37,279 nt of DNA from a bacterium (GCA_030649305.1 JAUSFV010000022.1:1-37279), one strand, 5' to 3'. Counted from the stretch's first letter, positions 19,966-27,915 are shown. Notes: generated by a model not told the origin, from the letters alone. Made by a program: numbers and translations.

Positions 19966-19994
19966 ATTATATATAGAAAATACTATTTAGTCAA
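19966..19994 (-). promoter_or_regulatory. Promoter of the GDPD-deaminase operon
   Basis: Minus strand TTGACT (19989-19994), 17-base spacer, TATAAT (19966-19971). The -35 box lies in the last codons of the upstream Pcm-MltG gene. Confidence 0.8.
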
Positions 19995-21824
19995 GTATTT
20001 TCTGACCGCCGCATTATGCTCCTCAAGCGTGCGGGAAAAAATCGTCCGGCCATCGGGAGCAGAAAGATAGTAAAAATAATCAGATTCTTGCGGGTATATT
20101 GCCGCGCGGATTGCCGAAATACCGGAATTCGCAATTGGTCCCGGCGGTAATCCATAATATTTATAGGTGTTATACGGCGAATCAATCAGCGTGTCCTCGA
20201 TAAGGACACGAGAGGTGAAAGGTGAGAGGTGAGAGGTGAGAGATTTCGCATAAAGAACTGTTGCATCAACTTGAAGCGGAATACTTAGACGCAACCGTTT
20301 CCACAATATTCCCGAGACAATCGCGCGGTCCTCATCCGATACGACCTCTTTTTCAATGAGGGATGCCATCCGCACGATATCAAAAATTGTCTTTTTCTGA
20401 CGCGTTATTTCCTCGCGCAAATCCGAGGTTAATTTTCTGTCAAAATTCGTGAGCGTTTTCGCAACAATACTTTCCAACGAAGCATCGCGAAAAATGCGAT
20501 AGGTATCGGGAAACAAATACCCCTCAAGCCCCGCATTTTGCGGCGCATCAGTCAAAAACGAAAAATCAGCACGAAAACGCGACACCCCGTCTTTTCCGAC
20601 CAAACGCAAAAAGTCGTTTTGCGATACAATGTTTTCCCGTAAAAAATACTCCGCAATCTCGCGTGTTGTCCACCCCTCAGGAATGGTGATAGCGCGTTCA
20701 TTCGTTCCTCCCCGACGCAAGTCGCGAACAAGTTCAGGAATCGTTACGGTATCATTCCAGATATAAAACCCCGGCTTCAAGTCGGATGCAACGCCCTTGA
20801 GTGACACATACGTCACAAATACCCACTTAGAATCAATAACGCCCCCCTGTTTCAAAAATGCGCCGATTTTCCGCGACCCAAGCCCTTGTTCAATCATAAT
20901 ACTTTTTGAGCCACGAAAGTCGGCGTGGGGCCAATATATCTGATACGCAAAGGCGGCAAAGGCAACAAAAGCGGCAAAGGCAAGAAGTAAGAAGTAGGAA
21001 GTAGGAAGTAGGGGACGAGAAAAAAATTTTTTATTCCTTTGGCGAGAAGCTGGGAGCTGGGAGCTGGGAGCTCTGCTCACAAGCGGCACGAACGCAAATC
21101 CGGGAAATTCTTCTTCTTTCCATTCGGTTTCTGCCGCCTCAACCTCGGTCGAGGCGAACCTCGCCCCGCTTCCAGCGGGGCGGGATTTTTTCGTAAAACG
21201 CCAAATGGAATTATCGATGGGCGCCACAATCCTCCCGCCGACTTTCAGTTTCCTCCGCCATTCATCCGGAATGTCGCGGGACGCGGCGGCTGCCGCAATA
21301 ATTTTATCATACGGCCCGTCGGGAATTTCCGCGGTCGCGTCCTGACAGAAAAATTCTACAACGCCGCGCGAGATAAATCCGTACTTCTCTATATTTTTCC
21401 GCGCATACTCGCAAAGCTCCGATATGCGTTCAATGGTCACTACGTGGCCCGCAGACCTCCGCCGACTTGACGCAGACATACGCTGAATATTGTCCGCGTT
21501 ATTCTGCGTTCCGTCTGCGTTAGTCTGCGACTCGCTCACCGCGTGAGCGAGTAACGCTGTCTGCCAACCGGAACCGGCTCCGATATCCAAAATTTTCTCC
21601 CCCTCCTGCGGATCCAAAAGTTCCAGCATAAATGCAACGGTCAGGGGCTGCGAAATCGTCTGGCCGTAGCCAATGGGCAGGGGATAATTGCCGTATGCTT
21701 CTTGTGCGTATTCCGACAGGACAAAATCCGCACGAGCAATCGCACGGAATGCGTCAATAATACGAGGAGTTTTCAGATACCCCCCGTTAATTAATTCTTG
21801 AACAAGCCCTTCTTTTCCTTCCAT
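19983..21824 (-). CDS. Fusion of protein-L-isoaspartate O-methyltransferase and MltG-type endolytic transglycosylase
   Basis: Residues 1-250 are a Pcm domain (TISQPLTVAFMLELL, then the SAM motif ILDIGAGSGWQTALL at 78-92), which repairs isoaspartyl residues. After one membrane helix (about 278-297), residues 300-613 are MltG, which cuts nascent peptidoglycan: EGYLFPDTYRI (434-444), ASLIEKEV with catalytic Glu491, LQVDATVLYA and SPYNTYKYYGLPPGPI. Pcm is normally cytoplasmic and MltG periplasmic with one anchor, so this topology is consistent. Word repeats are built into the coding region: CGCAGAC words (residues about 99-125), a hairpin repeat (213-235), AGCTCCC, TTCCTAC and GGCAAAG words in the linker and membrane helix (252-295), and TCACCTC words (528-540). 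All keep the frame. Whether this is one product or two domains joined by repeat growth needs protein evidence. Confidence 0.85.
   Translation of the reverse strand: MEGKEGLVQELINGGYLKTPRIIDAFRAIARADFVLSEYAQEAYGNYPLPIGYGQTISQPLTVAFMLELLDPQEGEKILDIGAGSGWQTALLAHAVSESQTNADGTQNNADNIQRMSASSRRRSAGHVVTIERISELCEYARKNIEKYGFISRGVVEFFCQDATAEIPDGPYDKIIAAAAASRDIPDEWRRKLKVGGRIVAPIDNSIWRFTKKSRPAGSGARFASTEVEAAETEWKEEEFPGFAFVPLVSRAPSSQLPASRQRNKKFFSRPLLPTSYFLLLAFAAFVAFAAFAYQIYWPHADFRGSKSIMIEQGLGSRKIGAFLKQGGVIDSKWVFVTYVSLKGVASDLKPGFYIWNDTVTIPELVRDLRRGGTNERAITIPEGWTTREIAEYFLRENIVSQNDFLRLVGKDGVSRFRADFSFLTDAPQNAGLEGYLFPDTYRIFRDASLESIVAKTLTNFDRKLTSDLREEITRQKKTIFDIVRMASLIEKEVVSDEDRAIVSGILWKRLRLSIPLQVDATVLYAKSLTSHLSPFTSRVLIEDTLIDSPYNTYKYYGLPPGPIANSGISAIRAAIYPQESDYFYYLSAPDGRTIFSRTLEEHNAAVRKYLTK
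20211..20243. repeat. Tandem GAGGTGA words inside mltG
   Basis: Four to five GAGGTGA/AAGGTGA units in tandem, encoding an SLTSHLSPFTS insert just before the conserved SPYNTY motif. Confidence 0.8.
20946..21072. repeat. Three adjoining word repeats in the Pcm-MltG linker
   Basis: GGCAAAG words (20946-20982), GAAGTAG words (20981-21014) and GAGCTGG words (21045-21072). Together they encode the linker and much of the membrane helix. Confidence 0.8.
21450..21531. repeat. CGCAGAC word cluster inside pcm
   Basis: Several CGCAGAC/TCTGCGTT words. They encode a Ser/Gln/Asn-rich insert between methyltransferase motif I and the next strand. The same words occur at 33250-33440. Confidence 0.75.
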
Positions 21825-22034: not shown

Positions 22035-22080
22035 AAAATAAGCATTCTTGAAAAAATATTAATACGGAACGGAGGAAATT

Positions 22081-22956
22081 ATGTCAATCCCAGAAGTGCT
22101 TGAAATGATACGCGGACGCACTGCCGCGCGGCACCAAGCGAAAGAAGCGTTTGTCCGCCCCACCGACTTGCAATCAATCATGTTGGCACAGGCGGCACGC
22201 CTTGCGAAAAGCGCTCCCCACGGCACCACTATCGTAGCAATTGAATATAATGATGGTATCGTTATGGCGGCAGATCGCCTCGCAACGCAATACCACGGAG
22301 ATGTGTTTTCGCGTACCGAAATAAAATTACAGGATATTAATAAAAACGCGGTACTCGGTATTTGCGGGTCGCTTGCGTTCGCGCAACACGTCATTGAAGA
22401 CCTACAAAATGACTGCGATGTCATCTCGGCAAAAATCAAACGGCCGGTTTCTATTCAAGGCAAAAGCAACCGCTTGAAAAAAATTATCGCAGAAAATATT
22501 TTTGACCTGCCGTGGTATCAATTGATGGGCGTGTCATTCGGCGCGATTCTCGGCGGATATGACCGCCACGACGGAAAAATTATACTCTCTTTTGATACGG
22601 ACGGCGGCGTCTATCCGCACGAGAAATTCGCAACCGACGGGTCGGGATACTCGCAGGCGCGCGATTATATTCATGACCGCTTTCAATACGACCTCTCTCT
22701 TGAAGAGGCAACTGGTATTGCGATTGGCGCAATACGCCAAGCGGGGAAATTCGTGACCTCGGTGTCACACCCTCTTGACCCGCCCCCGACAGTCAAAGTT
22801 ATACATCAGGACGGCATCCTTGATGTATCGGAAGAATCAATTCTCCAGTGGATCCTGGAAACCGAAGAAGAAGAGGAGCAACATCTTTTTGGAAAACAAA
22901 ATCCGGAAGAGGGGCGTAACTCCGAAGAAGGAGGGGGCGATGGAACACCTGCTTGA
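22081..22956 (+). CDS. prcB: 20S proteasome beta-type subunit
   Basis: Predicted N-terminal threonine peptidase. A pro-region of 48 residues ends in SAPHG, and maturation before Thr49 would expose TTIVAIEYNDGIVMAADRLA. Thr1, Asp17 and, one residue later than usual, Lys34 of the mature chain (SRTEIKL) match the catalytic set. GICGSLA and DGSGYSQA match the loop around Gly47 and the conserved Ser-Gly-Ser-like region (ATDGSGYS). The acidic residue expected after the last core helix is not obvious (AIRQAGKFVTSVS). The HGTTIVA context resembles actinobacterial PrcB more than HslV. A Glu-rich tail of about 35 residues follows the core. The ATG follows AACGGAGGAAATT. It overlaps the alpha-like gene by 17 bases, in the actinobacterial beta-alpha order. 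Confidence 0.88.
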   Translation: MSIPEVLEMIRGRTAARHQAKEAFVRPTDLQSIMLAQAARLAKSAPHGTTIVAIEYNDGIVMAADRLATQYHGDVFSRTEIKLQDINKNAVLGICGSLAFAQHVIEDLQNDCDVISAKIKRPVSIQGKSNRLKKIIAENIFDLPWYQLMGVSFGAILGGYDRHDGKIILSFDTDGGVYPHEKFATDGSGYSQARDYIHDRFQYDLSLEEATGIAIGAIRQAGKFVTSVSHPLDPPPTVKVIHQDGILDVSEESILQWILETEEEEEQHLFGKQNPEEGRNSEEGGGDGTPA

Positions 22957-23578
22957 TCCCATCAGCATTCTAAAAAAGAAAGAAGAATATGCCCTTGAGG
23001 AACTCAAAAAAGACGAACCGATTGTACTTCTGACGTCTCCCCGCGCAATGTATTGCGCCTCAATAAGCAACTCTAAGGCGCATCAAAAAATAACGCCCCT
23101 CGCGGATTATCCGGGGGCTCGCATACTCCTCTGCGGACGGGGGAATCAATCTGACTTAATTGTATTTAAAAATGAAGTCCGGCGCGCCATCACAGCCTAC
23201 GAGCAGATGGTCCACGGAAAAGACCTGTCGGGGCGCCTTATTGCGTTTACCGCGGCAGAAATCCTTCGGAAACACTATCTGGAAGGACAAAAGGCCCTCT
23301 CGGTACAAGTGGCATTTGTTGACATTCTTGATCCGGAGGATCCCATATGCGCCATTTCATTTACGGGAGAACAATTCGTAGGAAACAATTTTCTCTTCAA
23401 TGCATCGGGAATCATGCCCATCACAGAACAACCCGAGACGCTTGAAGAAATGAAGGCCTATGCGAAAACCATATTCGGTGAACGCAAAGAGGGAACTATA
23501 TTCTGGAATTTCGAATTAACGATAACGCCCGAATCGCCAACACCGGAGCCCGAAACGCAGTCGGAAAAAAATAAATAA
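22940..23578 (+). CDS. prcA: Divergent 20S proteasome alpha-type subunit
   Basis: ATG at 22940 inside the end of the beta gene, after GAAGAAGGAGGGGGCG; 212 residues. No catalytic threonine is present. The pattern follows PrcA: an N-terminal helix (ISILKKKEEYALEELKK) that would shape the pore entry, EPIVLLTSPRAMYCASIS in place of the first beta strands, KITPLADYPGARILLCGRGNQSD for the strand and turn, then AITAYEQMVHGKDLSGRLIA (compare GYxxxRxDVTGRxLA) and KALSVQVAFVDI (compare PFEVEICVAEV). The C-terminal 25 residues are Pro/Glu-rich. Similarity is by pattern, not strict identity, but position and overlap with the beta gene support it. Confidence 0.75.
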   Translation: MEHLLDPISILKKKEEYALEELKKDEPIVLLTSPRAMYCASISNSKAHQKITPLADYPGARILLCGRGNQSDLIVFKNEVRRAITAYEQMVHGKDLSGRLIAFTAAEILRKHYLEGQKALSVQVAFVDILDPEDPICAISFTGEQFVGNNFLFNASGIMPITEQPETLEEMKAYAKTIFGERKEGTIFWNFELTITPESPTPEPETQSEKNK

Positions 23579-23579
23579 A

Positions 23580-23604
23580 AAAAGTGAGACAATGTCTCAC
23601 TTTT
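23580..23604. terminator. Bidirectional terminator between prcA and the AAA+ gene
   Basis: AAAGTGAGAC, AAT loop, GTCTCACTTTT. It overlaps the stop codon of the convergent AAA+ gene. Confidence 0.85.
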
Positions 23605-25075
23605 ATTTTTGTTCTTTTCTGTTCCGTGTATCAGCCCGAAATACGGGTCTTTTTTCATTTTCCACCAAACCCATATCTACATGGAGAATATCGCCTTGAT
23701 GCAATTGTCCTGTTTGAATCATGGTATCAATGGGGTCTCTGATATAATGGCTGAGCTTTTTTTGAACGAGCCGCGCGCCTTCCTCCGGTTTATCTGTACT
23801 TTCCTTCCATAAAAAATCGATGATCGCTTCGCTCACGTAAAGCGTAATATCCATCTCTTTTTCAAAAAGAAGTTCCTGAAATTGGCTAATTTCCATTTTA
23901 ATAATTGCTTTAATTTGTTCGACGGTAAATTCACGCGCAACCACTATTTCGTTAATTCTACCCCGCATAGGCGCAAGAAACATATCGGTGATAGCATCAC
24001 GCGCCGCCGTATAGAGCGCTTGCTGTTTTTCCTCAAAACTCGCTTCACGCTCAATGCGAAACCCCGGCGGCTTTCGTCCGCGCATGATCGCTTCCATTTC
24101 TTTATCGCCCTTATTGGAAGTCATACCAACAATCGTTTCCGAAAAATCAGTCACCGTTCCGTTTTGAAGCGTAATACGCCTACGGTCGAGGATCTCATAA
24201 AAAATATTGGTAAACGCAGGGTGGGCCTTATCCACTTCATCGGCAAGCATTATTGCGCGTTTATGAACCTCGGGATTGAAAGAAAGGTCCTGTCCCGTTT
24301 CCATACTCAGATACATACTAATCCAATCGATCTTGCCATAAATTCCCGCAAGAACCGTGGTATATTGCGCAATCCTTATTTTCGCATTATGCGCAATTTC
24401 GGCAATCAAAAGTTCCTGATTGCTTGATTTGGCGTCCCGTCTCTCCGTGGGGAAATCATTTTTTGCCTCAAGCGCGCTGACAGCGTCCGAAAGTGTTCTT
24501 AAGCGATACGAATAAATCTCTTCCTGATTCTGAAATTGCAATAAGGCATCCTTGGCTTCTTGCGGTGTCATAGTAATCCCGTTGGTTTTCGTAGGTGTCT
24601 TTTCCGCGGCATCACGCAATACCTTAAAATAATGATACTTCCCGATATTCCACGGAGAAAGCATGGGAAAAGGGCCTCGCTCATCAATATTAGAGCCGAC
24701 ATAGCCCGGAGGAGAACCAATGAGTTTTGAAATCGCATGCTCCTCCCGATATTCTTGCCCCGAGAGTTTCGTCATGGCGCGTTTTTCTCCGAAAAGAAAC
24801 TGTGCCATCAACTCAAAAATCATGGTCTTGCCGGTACCGCTTGGCCCAAGGACGAGAATGGAACGAATGGGTTGGTCAGGATTGCGAAGCGTTCCTTCAA
24901 ATCGCCCCATCGCATGAACCGCGGCGCGCTGAAGACGCTCCTGTCCGATCATGCGCGGTTTTTGGAGAAATTCAGAAAATGCGCGTGCCGTTGCATTCAA
25001 CGCTTCGGGATTTAATTGTACCAGACGGGATACCTCAAGGGCTGTTTCCTCGGGTTTATGCTTTTCCTCTGACAT
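23603..25075 (-). CDS. Single-ring Clp/Hsp100-type AAA+ ATPase with inserted domain
   Basis: The start at 25075 follows AAGGAGAGAGAC; 490 residues. It has one ATPase module of the ClpB/ClpA second-ring type: Walker A GPSGTGKT (77-84), HAISKLIGSPPGYVG with the substrate-gripping GYVG pore loop (124-127), Walker B IMLADEVDKAHP (275-286), sensor 1 GMTSN (317-321), an arginine-finger region (RGRINEIV) and the sensor 2 GAR of the small domain. Between the pore loop and Walker B, where ClpB has about 25 residues, there are about 145, predicted mostly helical (KDALLQFQNQEEIYSYRLRT). There is no N-domain, first ring, ClpP-binding IGF-type loop that I can see, or HbYX tail. It converges with the proteasome genes, so it is a candidate unfoldase for them, but could also act alone. 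Confidence 0.8.
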   Translation of the reverse strand: MSEEKHKPEETALEVSRLVQLNPEALNATARAFSEFLQKPRMIGQERLQRAAVHAMGRFEGTLRNPDQPIRSILVLGPSGTGKTMIFELMAQFLFGEKRAMTKLSGQEYREEHAISKLIGSPPGYVGSNIDERGPFPMLSPWNIGKYHYFKVLRDAAEKTPTKTNGITMTPQEAKDALLQFQNQEEIYSYRLRTLSDAVSALEAKNDFPTERRDAKSSNQELLIAEIAHNAKIRIAQYTTVLAGIYGKIDWISMYLSMETGQDLSFNPEVHKRAIMLADEVDKAHPAFTNIFYEILDRRRITLQNGTVTDFSETIVGMTSNKGDKEMEAIMRGRKPPGFRIEREASFEEKQQALYTAARDAITDMFLAPMRGRINEIVVAREFTVEQIKAIIKMEISQFQELLFEKEMDITLYVSEAIIDFLWKESTDKPEEGARLVQKKLSHYIRDPIDTMIQTGQLHQGDILHVDMGLVENEKRPVFRADTRNRKEQK

Positions 25076-25240
25076 GTCTCTCTCCTTATTTTTAAAGCAA
25101 CTTCTTTCAGTATAACAGGACAAAGCGCATTATTGGAATGCTTGACTTTCTTATCTGAATCACGCTTGGTATATCCGCCAGAGGCGGATATTTTCGTGTC
25201 CCGCAATTCGCCCAAACTTCATTTAAGCGAATTAAGGACG

Positions 25241-25293: not shown

Positions 25294-27915
25294 TTACAAA
25301 GCATTCGGAAAGAGCTGTTTAACATTGATTCGCCAAGGATTCTTCAAATATCTGAAGAAAACCTCATAGGTGAACCTGGTAATCACGATGGGTCCTTTTC
25401 GGTCTTTCGGCACCCCGATTACTTTTGTACCGATATCGCCAAGACCAAAGTCAAGCGATTCCGCGAAAGGACTTCTGAATTCCTGCGCGGGGCTTATTGA
25501 ATAGAGGGAGCCCCGAGAAATAAATGTGGTATCCCGATCAATATGGCCCGCGAGCTCCAGAGCGAAACGGCCTTCATACAGGGGATCAGTCGGACCCCGT
25601 TCTGAACGCGCTCTTCGCAAAGATTTTACCGGCAAACCTTTTGAAGAAGTGCCCTGGCCTGACGGCTTATGCTTCGCGGAAAGACAGTACGGAAAGATTT
25701 TCTTAAGCTCCGCTTTGGAAAGCTTCGCGATATCTTCCCGCTTCATGCCATCCGGCAGAATGCCAAACGCCCCGAGAGCGCCGGAAACGCCGGAGATTTT
25801 CTCCGCAACTACCAGACGGTCCAAATCTTCATCGGTAAAACCCGCGCACTTCCGAAGCATTTTTATCAACGCCTCTCTCACAATTTCAGACTCTTCAAAA
25901 TGTTTTCCAACACCGCCGGAGTTCTTCCGACCGGTATTGCCAAAGTGATTTCCGCCAACGGCGGTAATAACACCCGCTTTCTCAATAAATTCCAAACGCA
26001 CTCTGCGGGCATTATTCAGCACCATGCAAAAATATTTAGCACCGCCAATAATAGCCCGAACCTCATAATTCTTGAGCTGATGGTCAACTCTCGGCGTACC
26101 GCCCAAAAACGAATTGAGCTCGGCAAGACGACCAACCTTCTCCGCTTTTTGATCGCCAGTCAGCCCCGCGTCACGAAGAATTGTATCTATATCCGCCACA
26201 AGCTCGTGAGTGATTCTATAATCCTCGGGAATCTCCAGGTGATATTCATGATTTTCTCCCTGAACGATGTCTCCGAGATTAACATAATGATGAATGGGTG
26301 CGGCAATTTTCACAAAGAAATCGTGGTGTACTGCGTACAGGGGTTTTTTGGACGGAAACCCGGGAACACTGTAGTAAGCCTGATGATGCGCGCCTTCCTG
26401 CATGTCACCTTCGTGTTCTCCGTAAATTTGGTAAGAGCCAAGAACGAGTTTTTCAATTTCCTCATTTTTCTCGAAAATCGTTTCATCAGCAAGATTGTTT
26501 GATGACCAAAAACGCGATTGCGGGAATTCCGAAGGCCAGCAGTAACTAAGCATTCCGGAGGTGAAATCCTCGTCATTAATCAACTTCGTAATTTCGGTTC
26601 CGATTTTGATACCACGCGCAGTTATTTTTTCAATGTAATCGTTATCAAGACACGTCGGCAGCTGCACGATAGCGACCTCGGCAATTTCCCGAGGCAGGCC
26701 GTCGGCTTTCGGATATTTAATTGAAAAATCGGTTGGCGCCAAGTTCAGCCCGCCGATAAGAATCAGGTCGGGCTGGCGCTTTCCATTTTTCTGCTCTTTC
26801 TGAATTTTTTTCGAGAGCTTATCAATAAAGACATCGGTCGTGGAATCGGTGTCCTTTTGTACCACACTGATCACTTTATCGCCAACCTTCACAAAACACT
26901 TTCCTGTTGAGATAACCCTAGCATTTGGGACGGCCTCTTCAATCATCTGCTTAAGCCGCAGCTGGCCTTCAAAAAACCAACGCTTGATATCTGCGGCATC
27001 ACAGGTGGTGGCTCTGGTATTTTCAAGTTCTCCGATAACATCCCTTAGCTTTGCCTCGGTTTCGGGAAAAGATACCTGTTCTTCTTGAAGACGAACCTGA
27101 AGCTTCGCGATGCTTTCAAGAATTACCCGACGGTTATTTTCTCGTTCATCCGACGGAGCAACCCGATCCAGTCCTTGCAATGCTTCTGTATCTTTAGCAA
27201 TTGCTTTCTGAAGCAAGCCCATTTGTTTAGCCGCGCTCTTCACCCCCGCTCGAAGAAAACTTCGTTCCATGCGAAGTTTTTCTTGTTTTTCAGCAACAAC
27301 CTTACGCGTATGCTCATCAACCCAAAACTGAATGATTTCTTCTTCACATTTGCCAAAGGGACAATAGATAGGACCGTTATAGAGGGGCTTACCCCCCTCA
27401 TCAAGCGACGCCTTCTTCAGCATTTCAATCCGATCTTTGATGCGATTCTCAACACTGATGAAATTCGCCTCACGATCTTCTTCCATGTTGAGTTCAGAAA
27501 GAGTAATGGGCTTTGTTTGCTCAACCAGCGCCCTATGGACCCGCAGCTTTGAATATTTTTTTGTATCAACGTGAATAAGATTCCCGGTCACGAGCACCAC
27601 CGGCGCGCCAACCACATCAGCGTGCCGACGATGAACTTCCGCAAGACGAAGGGCGTTTGAAAACGGATTGCGATACGGATGAGTATCCGCGCAAACGCCG
27701 ATCATCGGAGTGTTGATAGCGTGAATGATAGGCATCAAACTCTTAGGCGTTTCAATAACAAGCGGATTCTCAAGCGTGGTTTCTCCAACGATTGCCGGAA
27801 AAACCGACGTTTCAATCACGTATGCTACAGAAGAATTTTTCTTCCGTTCTTTCTTTACCCCTACCCGCTTCTGTTCGCGACCACCCGACTTTCGTTTCTC
27901 TGACTTTTTCGCCAT
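25294..27915 (-). CDS. Very large metallophosphoesterase-like protein, 873 residues
   Basis: The ATG follows AAAGGAGGAACTCC. The N-terminus is a Lys/Arg-rich tail (1-27). MIGVCADTHPYRNPF (71-84) resembles the D-x-H metal motif of calcineurin-like phosphoesterases, and VVLVTGNLIHVDT (106-118) the usual GD motif, with Asn for Asp. A strongly charged coiled coil follows (about 205-310). Further on, HHYVNLGDIVQGENHEYH (about 545) and VITAVGGNHFGNTG (about 655) could be the true GD and GNH motifs. Near the C-terminus, ALELAGHIDRDTTF may give the last metal His. If so the phosphoesterase domain is split or duplicated. I do not recognise a named family. It is followed by the AAA+ gene and preceded by the HIT gene on the same strand, each with its own terminator or promoter region. 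Confidence 0.6.
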   Translation of the reverse strand: MAKKSEKRKSGGREQKRVGVKKERKKNSSVAYVIETSVFPAIVGETTLENPLVIETPKSLMPIIHAINTPMIGVCADTHPYRNPFSNALRLAEVHRRHADVVGAPVVLVTGNLIHVDTKKYSKLRVHRALVEQTKPITLSELNMEEDREANFISVENRIKDRIEMLKKASLDEGGKPLYNGPIYCPFGKCEEEIIQFWVDEHTRKVVAEKQEKLRMERSFLRAGVKSAAKQMGLLQKAIAKDTEALQGLDRVAPSDERENNRRVILESIAKLQVRLQEEQVSFPETEAKLRDVIGELENTRATTCDAADIKRWFFEGQLRLKQMIEEAVPNARVISTGKCFVKVGDKVISVVQKDTDSTTDVFIDKLSKKIQKEQKNGKRQPDLILIGGLNLAPTDFSIKYPKADGLPREIAEVAIVQLPTCLDNDYIEKITARGIKIGTEITKLINDEDFTSGMLSYCWPSEFPQSRFWSSNNLADETIFEKNEEIEKLVLGSYQIYGEHEGDMQEGAHHQAYYSVPGFPSKKPLYAVHHDFFVKIAAPIHHYVNLGDIVQGENHEYHLEIPEDYRITHELVADIDTILRDAGLTGDQKAEKVGRLAELNSFLGGTPRVDHQLKNYEVRAIIGGAKYFCMVLNNARRVRLEFIEKAGVITAVGGNHFGNTGRKNSGGVGKHFEESEIVREALIKMLRKCAGFTDEDLDRLVVAEKISGVSGALGAFGILPDGMKREDIAKLSKAELKKIFPYCLSAKHKPSGQGTSSKGLPVKSLRRARSERGPTDPLYEGRFALELAGHIDRDTTFISRGSLYSISPAQEFRSPFAESLDFGLGDIGTKVIGVPKDRKGPIVITRFTYEVFFRYLKNPWRINVKQLFPNAL

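Follow-up and report, generated by a model that had tools for sequence, protein, structure and literature searches.

The genes at 22081-23578 of the window, that is, of the whole stretch of 37,279 nucleotides analysed here, are a genuine 20S proteasome beta-alpha pair. With a probability of about 75%, the 20S core that they encode and the AAA+ protein of the adjacent gene do not form a pair; this neighbour is probably a separate Clp-type unfoldase and not a proteasome partner. The best explanation of the locus is that two unrelated units lie tail to tail, the first of them being an operon for a divergent bacterial 20S core. To our knowledge, 20S proteasomes of bacteria have been described chiefly from Actinobacteria and Nitrospirae and hardly ever without Pup and Mpa/ARC. 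Beta-alpha pairs with no linked Pup ligase or Mpa are called unlinked below.

The beta subunit

The gene for the 20S beta subunit (22081-22956, plus strand) is preceded by a GGAGG Shine-Dalgarno sequence at 22071-22075. In profile searches its product matches PF00227 with E=6.9e-24 and TIGR03690, the bacterial 20S beta profile, with 87.5 bits, which is below the NCBIfam equivalog cut-off of 191.9 bits. The HslV profile gives 21 bits against a cut-off of 137 bits, so that a comparison proposed in the first-pass annotation comes out in favor of the 20S family. The pair also differs from HslV in possessing an alpha gene and in adjoining an ATPase that is ClpB-D2-like, not hslU. Anbu is a beta-only complex with a C-terminal helix H5; the window beta, in comparison, has an alpha partner, and the bacterial 20S beta profile was the better match among the 20S and HslV profiles compared.

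The catalytic residues can be assigned directly. A propeptide is predicted for residues 1-48, with HG preceding Thr49, the equivalent of Thr1. Asp65 corresponds to Asp17, and Lys82, shifted by an insertion of one residue in a loop, to Lys33. The columns of Thr1, Asp17 and Lys33 show no variation in an alignment of 11 beta homologues. The HG-Thr site, the Asp17 and the Lys near 33 recognized in the first-pass annotation are borne out. Judged from its sequence, the protein therefore carries the Thr1/Asp17/Lys33 set together with a propeptide whose cleavage is predicted. It is proposed that beta is made with this propeptide and cut before Thr49.

The second triad, formed by Ser129 and Asp166, is incomplete. 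The GSG motif with Ser129 is retained in the window beta, and Val225 stands at the Asp166 column. In the archaeal enzyme, D166A blocks autolysis and self-processing, while D166N reduces activity in yeast (PMC4792962). Because of this substitution and the archaeal result, the activity of the window beta is uncertain. Asp166 is absent or variable in several other betas of the class as well, unlinked ones included, and its loss therefore weakens the claim of full activity, not the claim of homology. The same substitution could mean that the proteasome is degenerate, with a beta unable to mature and a pair in decay. However, both frames are open, the pair has intact ribosome-binding sites, beta retains Thr1, Asp17 and Lys33, and position 166 varies in several members of the class, all of which makes decay improbable.

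The alpha subunit and the beta-alpha operon

The second gene (22940-23578, plus strand) encodes a 20S alpha subunit of 212 amino acids without a catalytic Thr. The best choice of start is the ATG at 22940, which gives an overlap of 17 nt with the end of beta, and its Shine-Dalgarno sequence, GGAGG at 22930-22934, lies within the beta gene. The match to PF00227 (17.2 bits) is under the cut-off of 22.4, and the profile search gave zero NCBIfam matches. The AlphaFold model, computed from a 20-row alignment, has a pLDDT of 81.5 and begins with a helix at residues 7-23. Foldseek matches this model to Mycobacterium tuberculosis proteasome chains with E of about 1e-10 and TM of 0.66-0.70. The matched chains comprise 210-223 residues, which is the size of alpha, while the listed beta chains have 234 or more. 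The protein thus has the N-terminal helix of an alpha subunit and no Thr1, and the earlier assignment of this gene as an alpha without a catalytic Thr stands.

The known system closest to the pair is the actinobacterial PrcB/PrcA (Rhodococcus 2h6j, M. tuberculosis 3mi0), which supplies its best structure and sequence matches. Both systems possess coupled genes in the order beta then alpha, a propeptide, the Thr1/Asp17/Lys33 set and the N-terminal helix of alpha. In contrast, the window pair reaches about 30% identity at best and stays below the NCBIfam equivalog cut-offs, Asp166 of its beta is replaced, and its locus is without Pup and Mpa genes. The alpha subunit, translationally coupled to beta, would cap the beta rings to form alpha7-beta7-beta7-alpha7.

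The AAA+ gene and its neighbors

The AAA+ gene (23603-25123, minus strand) converges on the alpha gene. Based on profile, fold and synteny, it encodes a single-ring Clp/Hsp100 AAA+ protein that is ClpB-D2-like and is judged to lie outside the proteasome. Its likely ATG is at 25073-25075 on the minus strand, in agreement with the first-pass annotation. Walker A, Walker B, the sensor and the GYVG pore loop are all intact. From GYVG to Walker B there are 144 residues, compared with 14 in the ClpC of the same genome, and the window protein therefore has about 130 extra residues. The description of a single-ring Clp/Hsp100 protein with GYVG and an insert before Walker B was thus correct, the insert being somewhat longer than the 110-120 residues first estimated. 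In the predicted structure, the insertion consists of three long helices.

The protein shares its D2-type core and GYVG loop with the second ring of ClpA and ClpC, and its relatives have the (I/L/V)GF-type docking loop. Specifically, an (I/L/V/M/F)G(F/L) tripeptide occupies the position of the ClpA/ClpC loop that docks ClpP in all 19 AAA+ relatives aligned, whereas the window protein has PGF and not a hydrophobic residue followed by GF. It differs from ClpA and ClpC additionally in having one ring, in being without the N-domain and D1, and in the long helices inserted between its pore loop and Walker B. The top fold match of the modelled protein is ClpC within a ClpC-ClpP complex. Features of Mpa/ARC are missing from it: TIGR03689 and OB-domain profiles gave no match, and the C-terminus, KEQK, is without an HbYX-like tail. 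An ordinary ClpP is encoded in the window genome, on contig C40, and the AAA+ protein would act as an unfoldase with ClpP as its most likely partner. In one other genome (G066), a clpP-like gene (PF00574, 2e-16) directly follows the single-ring AAA+ gene. At this locus (L132, 5165-8075), the AAA+ lies between weakly LonN-like and ClpP-like proteins, an arrangement that suggests a split protease operon. The single-ring AAA+ gene of G048 (L053, 4306-5772) contains an in-frame TAG stop.

This AAA+ family was found in about 17 of the 384 genomes surveyed. A beta-alpha pair is present at the window only among the 17 loci inspected (0 of the 16 others), and the recurring neighbors are other genes. 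A metallophosphoesterase-like gene lies within a few genes of the AAA+ at 6 of the 17 loci, and PCMT, YceG or rplJ/rplL are nearby at several, the window likewise. In the window, the first of these neighbors is a protein of 873 amino acids (25294-27915, minus strand), whose homologues match PF00149 and winged-helix profiles; the protein itself gave no direct match in the Pfam search. On the other side, a PCMT-YceG fusion of 613 amino acids (19983-21824, minus strand; PF01135 and PF02618) belongs to the conserved backbone that flanks the AAA+ gene. PCMT and YceG are fused in some relatives and encoded by separate genes in others. In a genome of the same order (G011), a gene judged metallophosphoesterase-like by its sequence abuts PCMT-YceG without an AAA+ gene and without beta-alpha. 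In two genomes of the same family (G001 and G004), it is a lon-like gene that takes this place.

On the reading put forward tentatively in the first-pass annotation, the window 20S core would receive its substrates from the single-ring Clp AAA+, docked on the alpha ring. Separation of the AAA+ gene from the pair in relatives, together with the lack of a predicted contact with the ring, was named there as grounds for giving it up. The two genes are adjacent in the window, both were missing, at the thresholds used, from the family's five other genomes, and the ATPase and pore-loop motifs of the AAA+ protein are intact, all of which is in keeping with docking. However, the genes are unlinked elsewhere. 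No AAA+ gene adjoins beta-alpha at the 12 other unlinked loci (at G034 the contig breaks off immediately before beta, and the G276 locus begins close to a contig end, so that for these two the finding covers the downstream side), and no pair accompanies the 16 other AAA+ loci, the backbone of the AAA+ locus being conserved without beta-alpha. Moreover, the two units are convergent and share a bidirectional intrinsic-terminator-like site at 23580-23604, with an 11-bp stem and a T tail on both strands. The missing HbYX tail and the ClpP-type loop of the relatives also argue against docking, which is very unlikely overall.

A Pup-proteasome set in the same genome

The first-pass annotation had noted that no Pup, ligase or Mpa-like gene is visible. 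This holds within the window, where Pup, PafA/Dop and Mpa profiles gave no match, but does not extend to the genome. Contig C28 (locus L046) of the same 1.02-Mb assembly carries a complete set: an Mpa/ARC gene (644 bits, cut-off 505), a Pup that ends in GGE (76 bits), and two PafA/Dop-family genes, with a third on contig C36. A further beta-alpha pair is also found on C28, and it is this pair that lies near such genes. It is encoded on the strand opposite to the Pup cluster, about 2.3 kb from the nearer ligase-family gene, with three unassigned ORFs between (L046, 11355-13326). One of the three matches ClpP weakly (E=0.0053). Given the Mpa/ARC, Pup, PafA/Dop and beta-alpha genes on C28, the window pair represents a second proteasome.

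Misbinning of C28 is unlikely. The composition correlation between C28 and the window is 0.72-0.76, compared with 0.69 between the two halves of the window and at most 0.64 for ten other genomes. The C28 Mpa is 71% identical to the copy in a genome of the same family, and ribosomal protein L10, encoded on the contig of the window, shares 73% identity with that of the same relative. Because of their composition and their closest kin in one family, C28 and the window contig appear to belong to a single organism.

The two pairs have the same gene content and share a genome, but their betas are only about 23% identical, and the C28 beta apparently has Asn at position 166, where the window beta has Val. 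In Rhodococcus, two alpha and two beta genes co-assemble. With two pairs in one genome, the window beta and alpha could similarly co-assemble with the C28 subunits into mixed or alternative cores. The low identity of the betas and their separate branches in the beta tree make shared rings less likely, and this arrangement is considered rather improbable.

Distribution within the class

The survey covered 384 genomes of the class to which the window genome belongs; kinship groups and gene content suggest that this class falls within the Patescibacteria/CPR. Beta matches were obtained in 21 of these genomes. Two of them, the short betas of G183 and G345, were set aside as being of a different type and without a propeptide. 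Short beta-like proteins without a propeptide (L098, 8574-9275; L099, 8822-9517) start with MTLVIG, and each lies beside a gene for a protein of 120-130 amino acids; they represent a proteasome-like type of their own. A phylum-wide beta search added one weak match outside the class (G595, E=1.1e-4).

Beta-alpha pairs are present in 19 of the 384 genomes. Seven are Pup-linked, each with PafA/Dop and an Mpa-level match, and in the remaining 12 neither a Pup ligase nor Mpa was found: PF03136 is absent genome-wide, and the best TIGR03689 score is 146 bits, no higher than the FtsH level. An alpha-like gene adjoins beta in all 12. The window genome (G000) is the only one to have both a Pup-linked and an unlinked pair. 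In the beta tree, the window copy groups with the unlinked betas with moderate support (79/76) and long branches. Genes in the vicinity of unlinked pairs, as named by sequence inspection, include argS, ileS, and htrA-like and glycosylase-like genes.

The idea that unlinked pairs generally depend on a single-ring AAA+ was rejected. Two of the 12 genomes (G270 and G276) do encode a single-ring Clp AAA+, but it is without the insertion and is encoded on other contigs. In G314 and G270, the gene immediately downstream of the unlinked beta-alpha is a divergent ClpP-like one (L085, 10421-11068; L091, 10500-11270), and a ClpP match is absent in G276, G294, G324, G338 and G368. The reverse arrangement, with Mpa and PafA/Dop-family genes and no recognized beta-alpha at the locus, was seen in G003, G005, G012, G044, G054 and G079 (L145, L146, L055, L058, L060, L061). 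Pup is present at several of these loci, and some carry three or more PafA/Dop copies.

Possible modes of action

If the window core does not use its neighbor, its substrates could be delivered by the Mpa of C28 or could enter unaided. The activator-docking Lys is Lys66 in the Thermoplasma alpha, and its column was used to place Lys50 of the window alpha. A Lys or Arg followed by Ile or Val occurs at this column in all seven Pup-linked alphas and, among the unlinked alphas, in those of the window and G043; the 11 others lack it. This alignment was made at 12-20% identity, so the Lys50 pattern depends on the alignment and is suggestive. The Mpa of C28 ends in GHYL. An HbYX-like ending was found in none of the six other Mpa copies examined, with ORFs as called, and C-terminal motifs therefore discriminate weakly. 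Since Lys50 is kept and the Mpa ends in GHYL, the window core could be served in trans by the C28 Mpa, its tail fitting the Lys50 pocket; this is the likelier of the two modes and is given somewhat less than an even chance.

Alternatively, the window core may be an ATP-independent 20S peptidase with no dedicated ATPase, degrading unfolded, damaged or loosely folded proteins. This is a tentative reading. The occurrence of the pair in 12 genomes where no Mpa or Pup ligase was found speaks for it, as does the apparent lack of the docking Lys or Arg in 11 of the 12 unlinked alphas, whereas the Lys50 of the window alpha and the GHYL ending of the genome's Mpa speak against it. ATP-independent work has also been suggested for many proteasome homologues without AAA+ partners, including BPH, WPH and PHI, among others (Fuchs et al., 2021; PMC8665760). 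The window pair is likewise prokaryotic and without a linked AAA+ partner. However, a true alpha gene stands beside its beta, which makes it a 20S of the two-subunit type, unlike the beta-only homologues (PMC8665760).

Under either mode, the reading preferred here is that of a 20S core independent of the adjacent AAA+. A wider claim is also tentative, with odds clearly short of even: that a lineage of small-genome bacteria within this class keeps an alpha-beta 20S without the Pup tag or a proteasomal ATPase, and that the window genome runs two separate 20S proteasomes, one near Pup/Mpa and one independent.

Implications

In a 2020 study of Dop and PafA, pupylation was described from Actinobacteria and Nitrospirae and sporadically elsewhere (PMC7947786). 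In the open-access literature, no report was found of Patescibacteria, Parcubacteria or CPR that have alpha-beta pairs but neither Pup nor Mpa. The present locus also calls for caution, as adjacency in a single genome is poor ground for pairing an AAA+ protein with a protease.

In conclusion, the main interest of the finding is in proteasomes without any Pup genes. The parts of the system separate within this class: in 12 genomes alpha-beta is present and no Pup ligase or Mpa was found, several have Mpa and PafA/Dop at loci without a recognized alpha-beta, some have all of the parts, and the window genome has all of the parts plus a second core. Such genomes are natural gene-loss experiments on two questions: did the tag, the unfoldase and the core evolve independently of one another, and can a bacterial 20S work without an ATPase?
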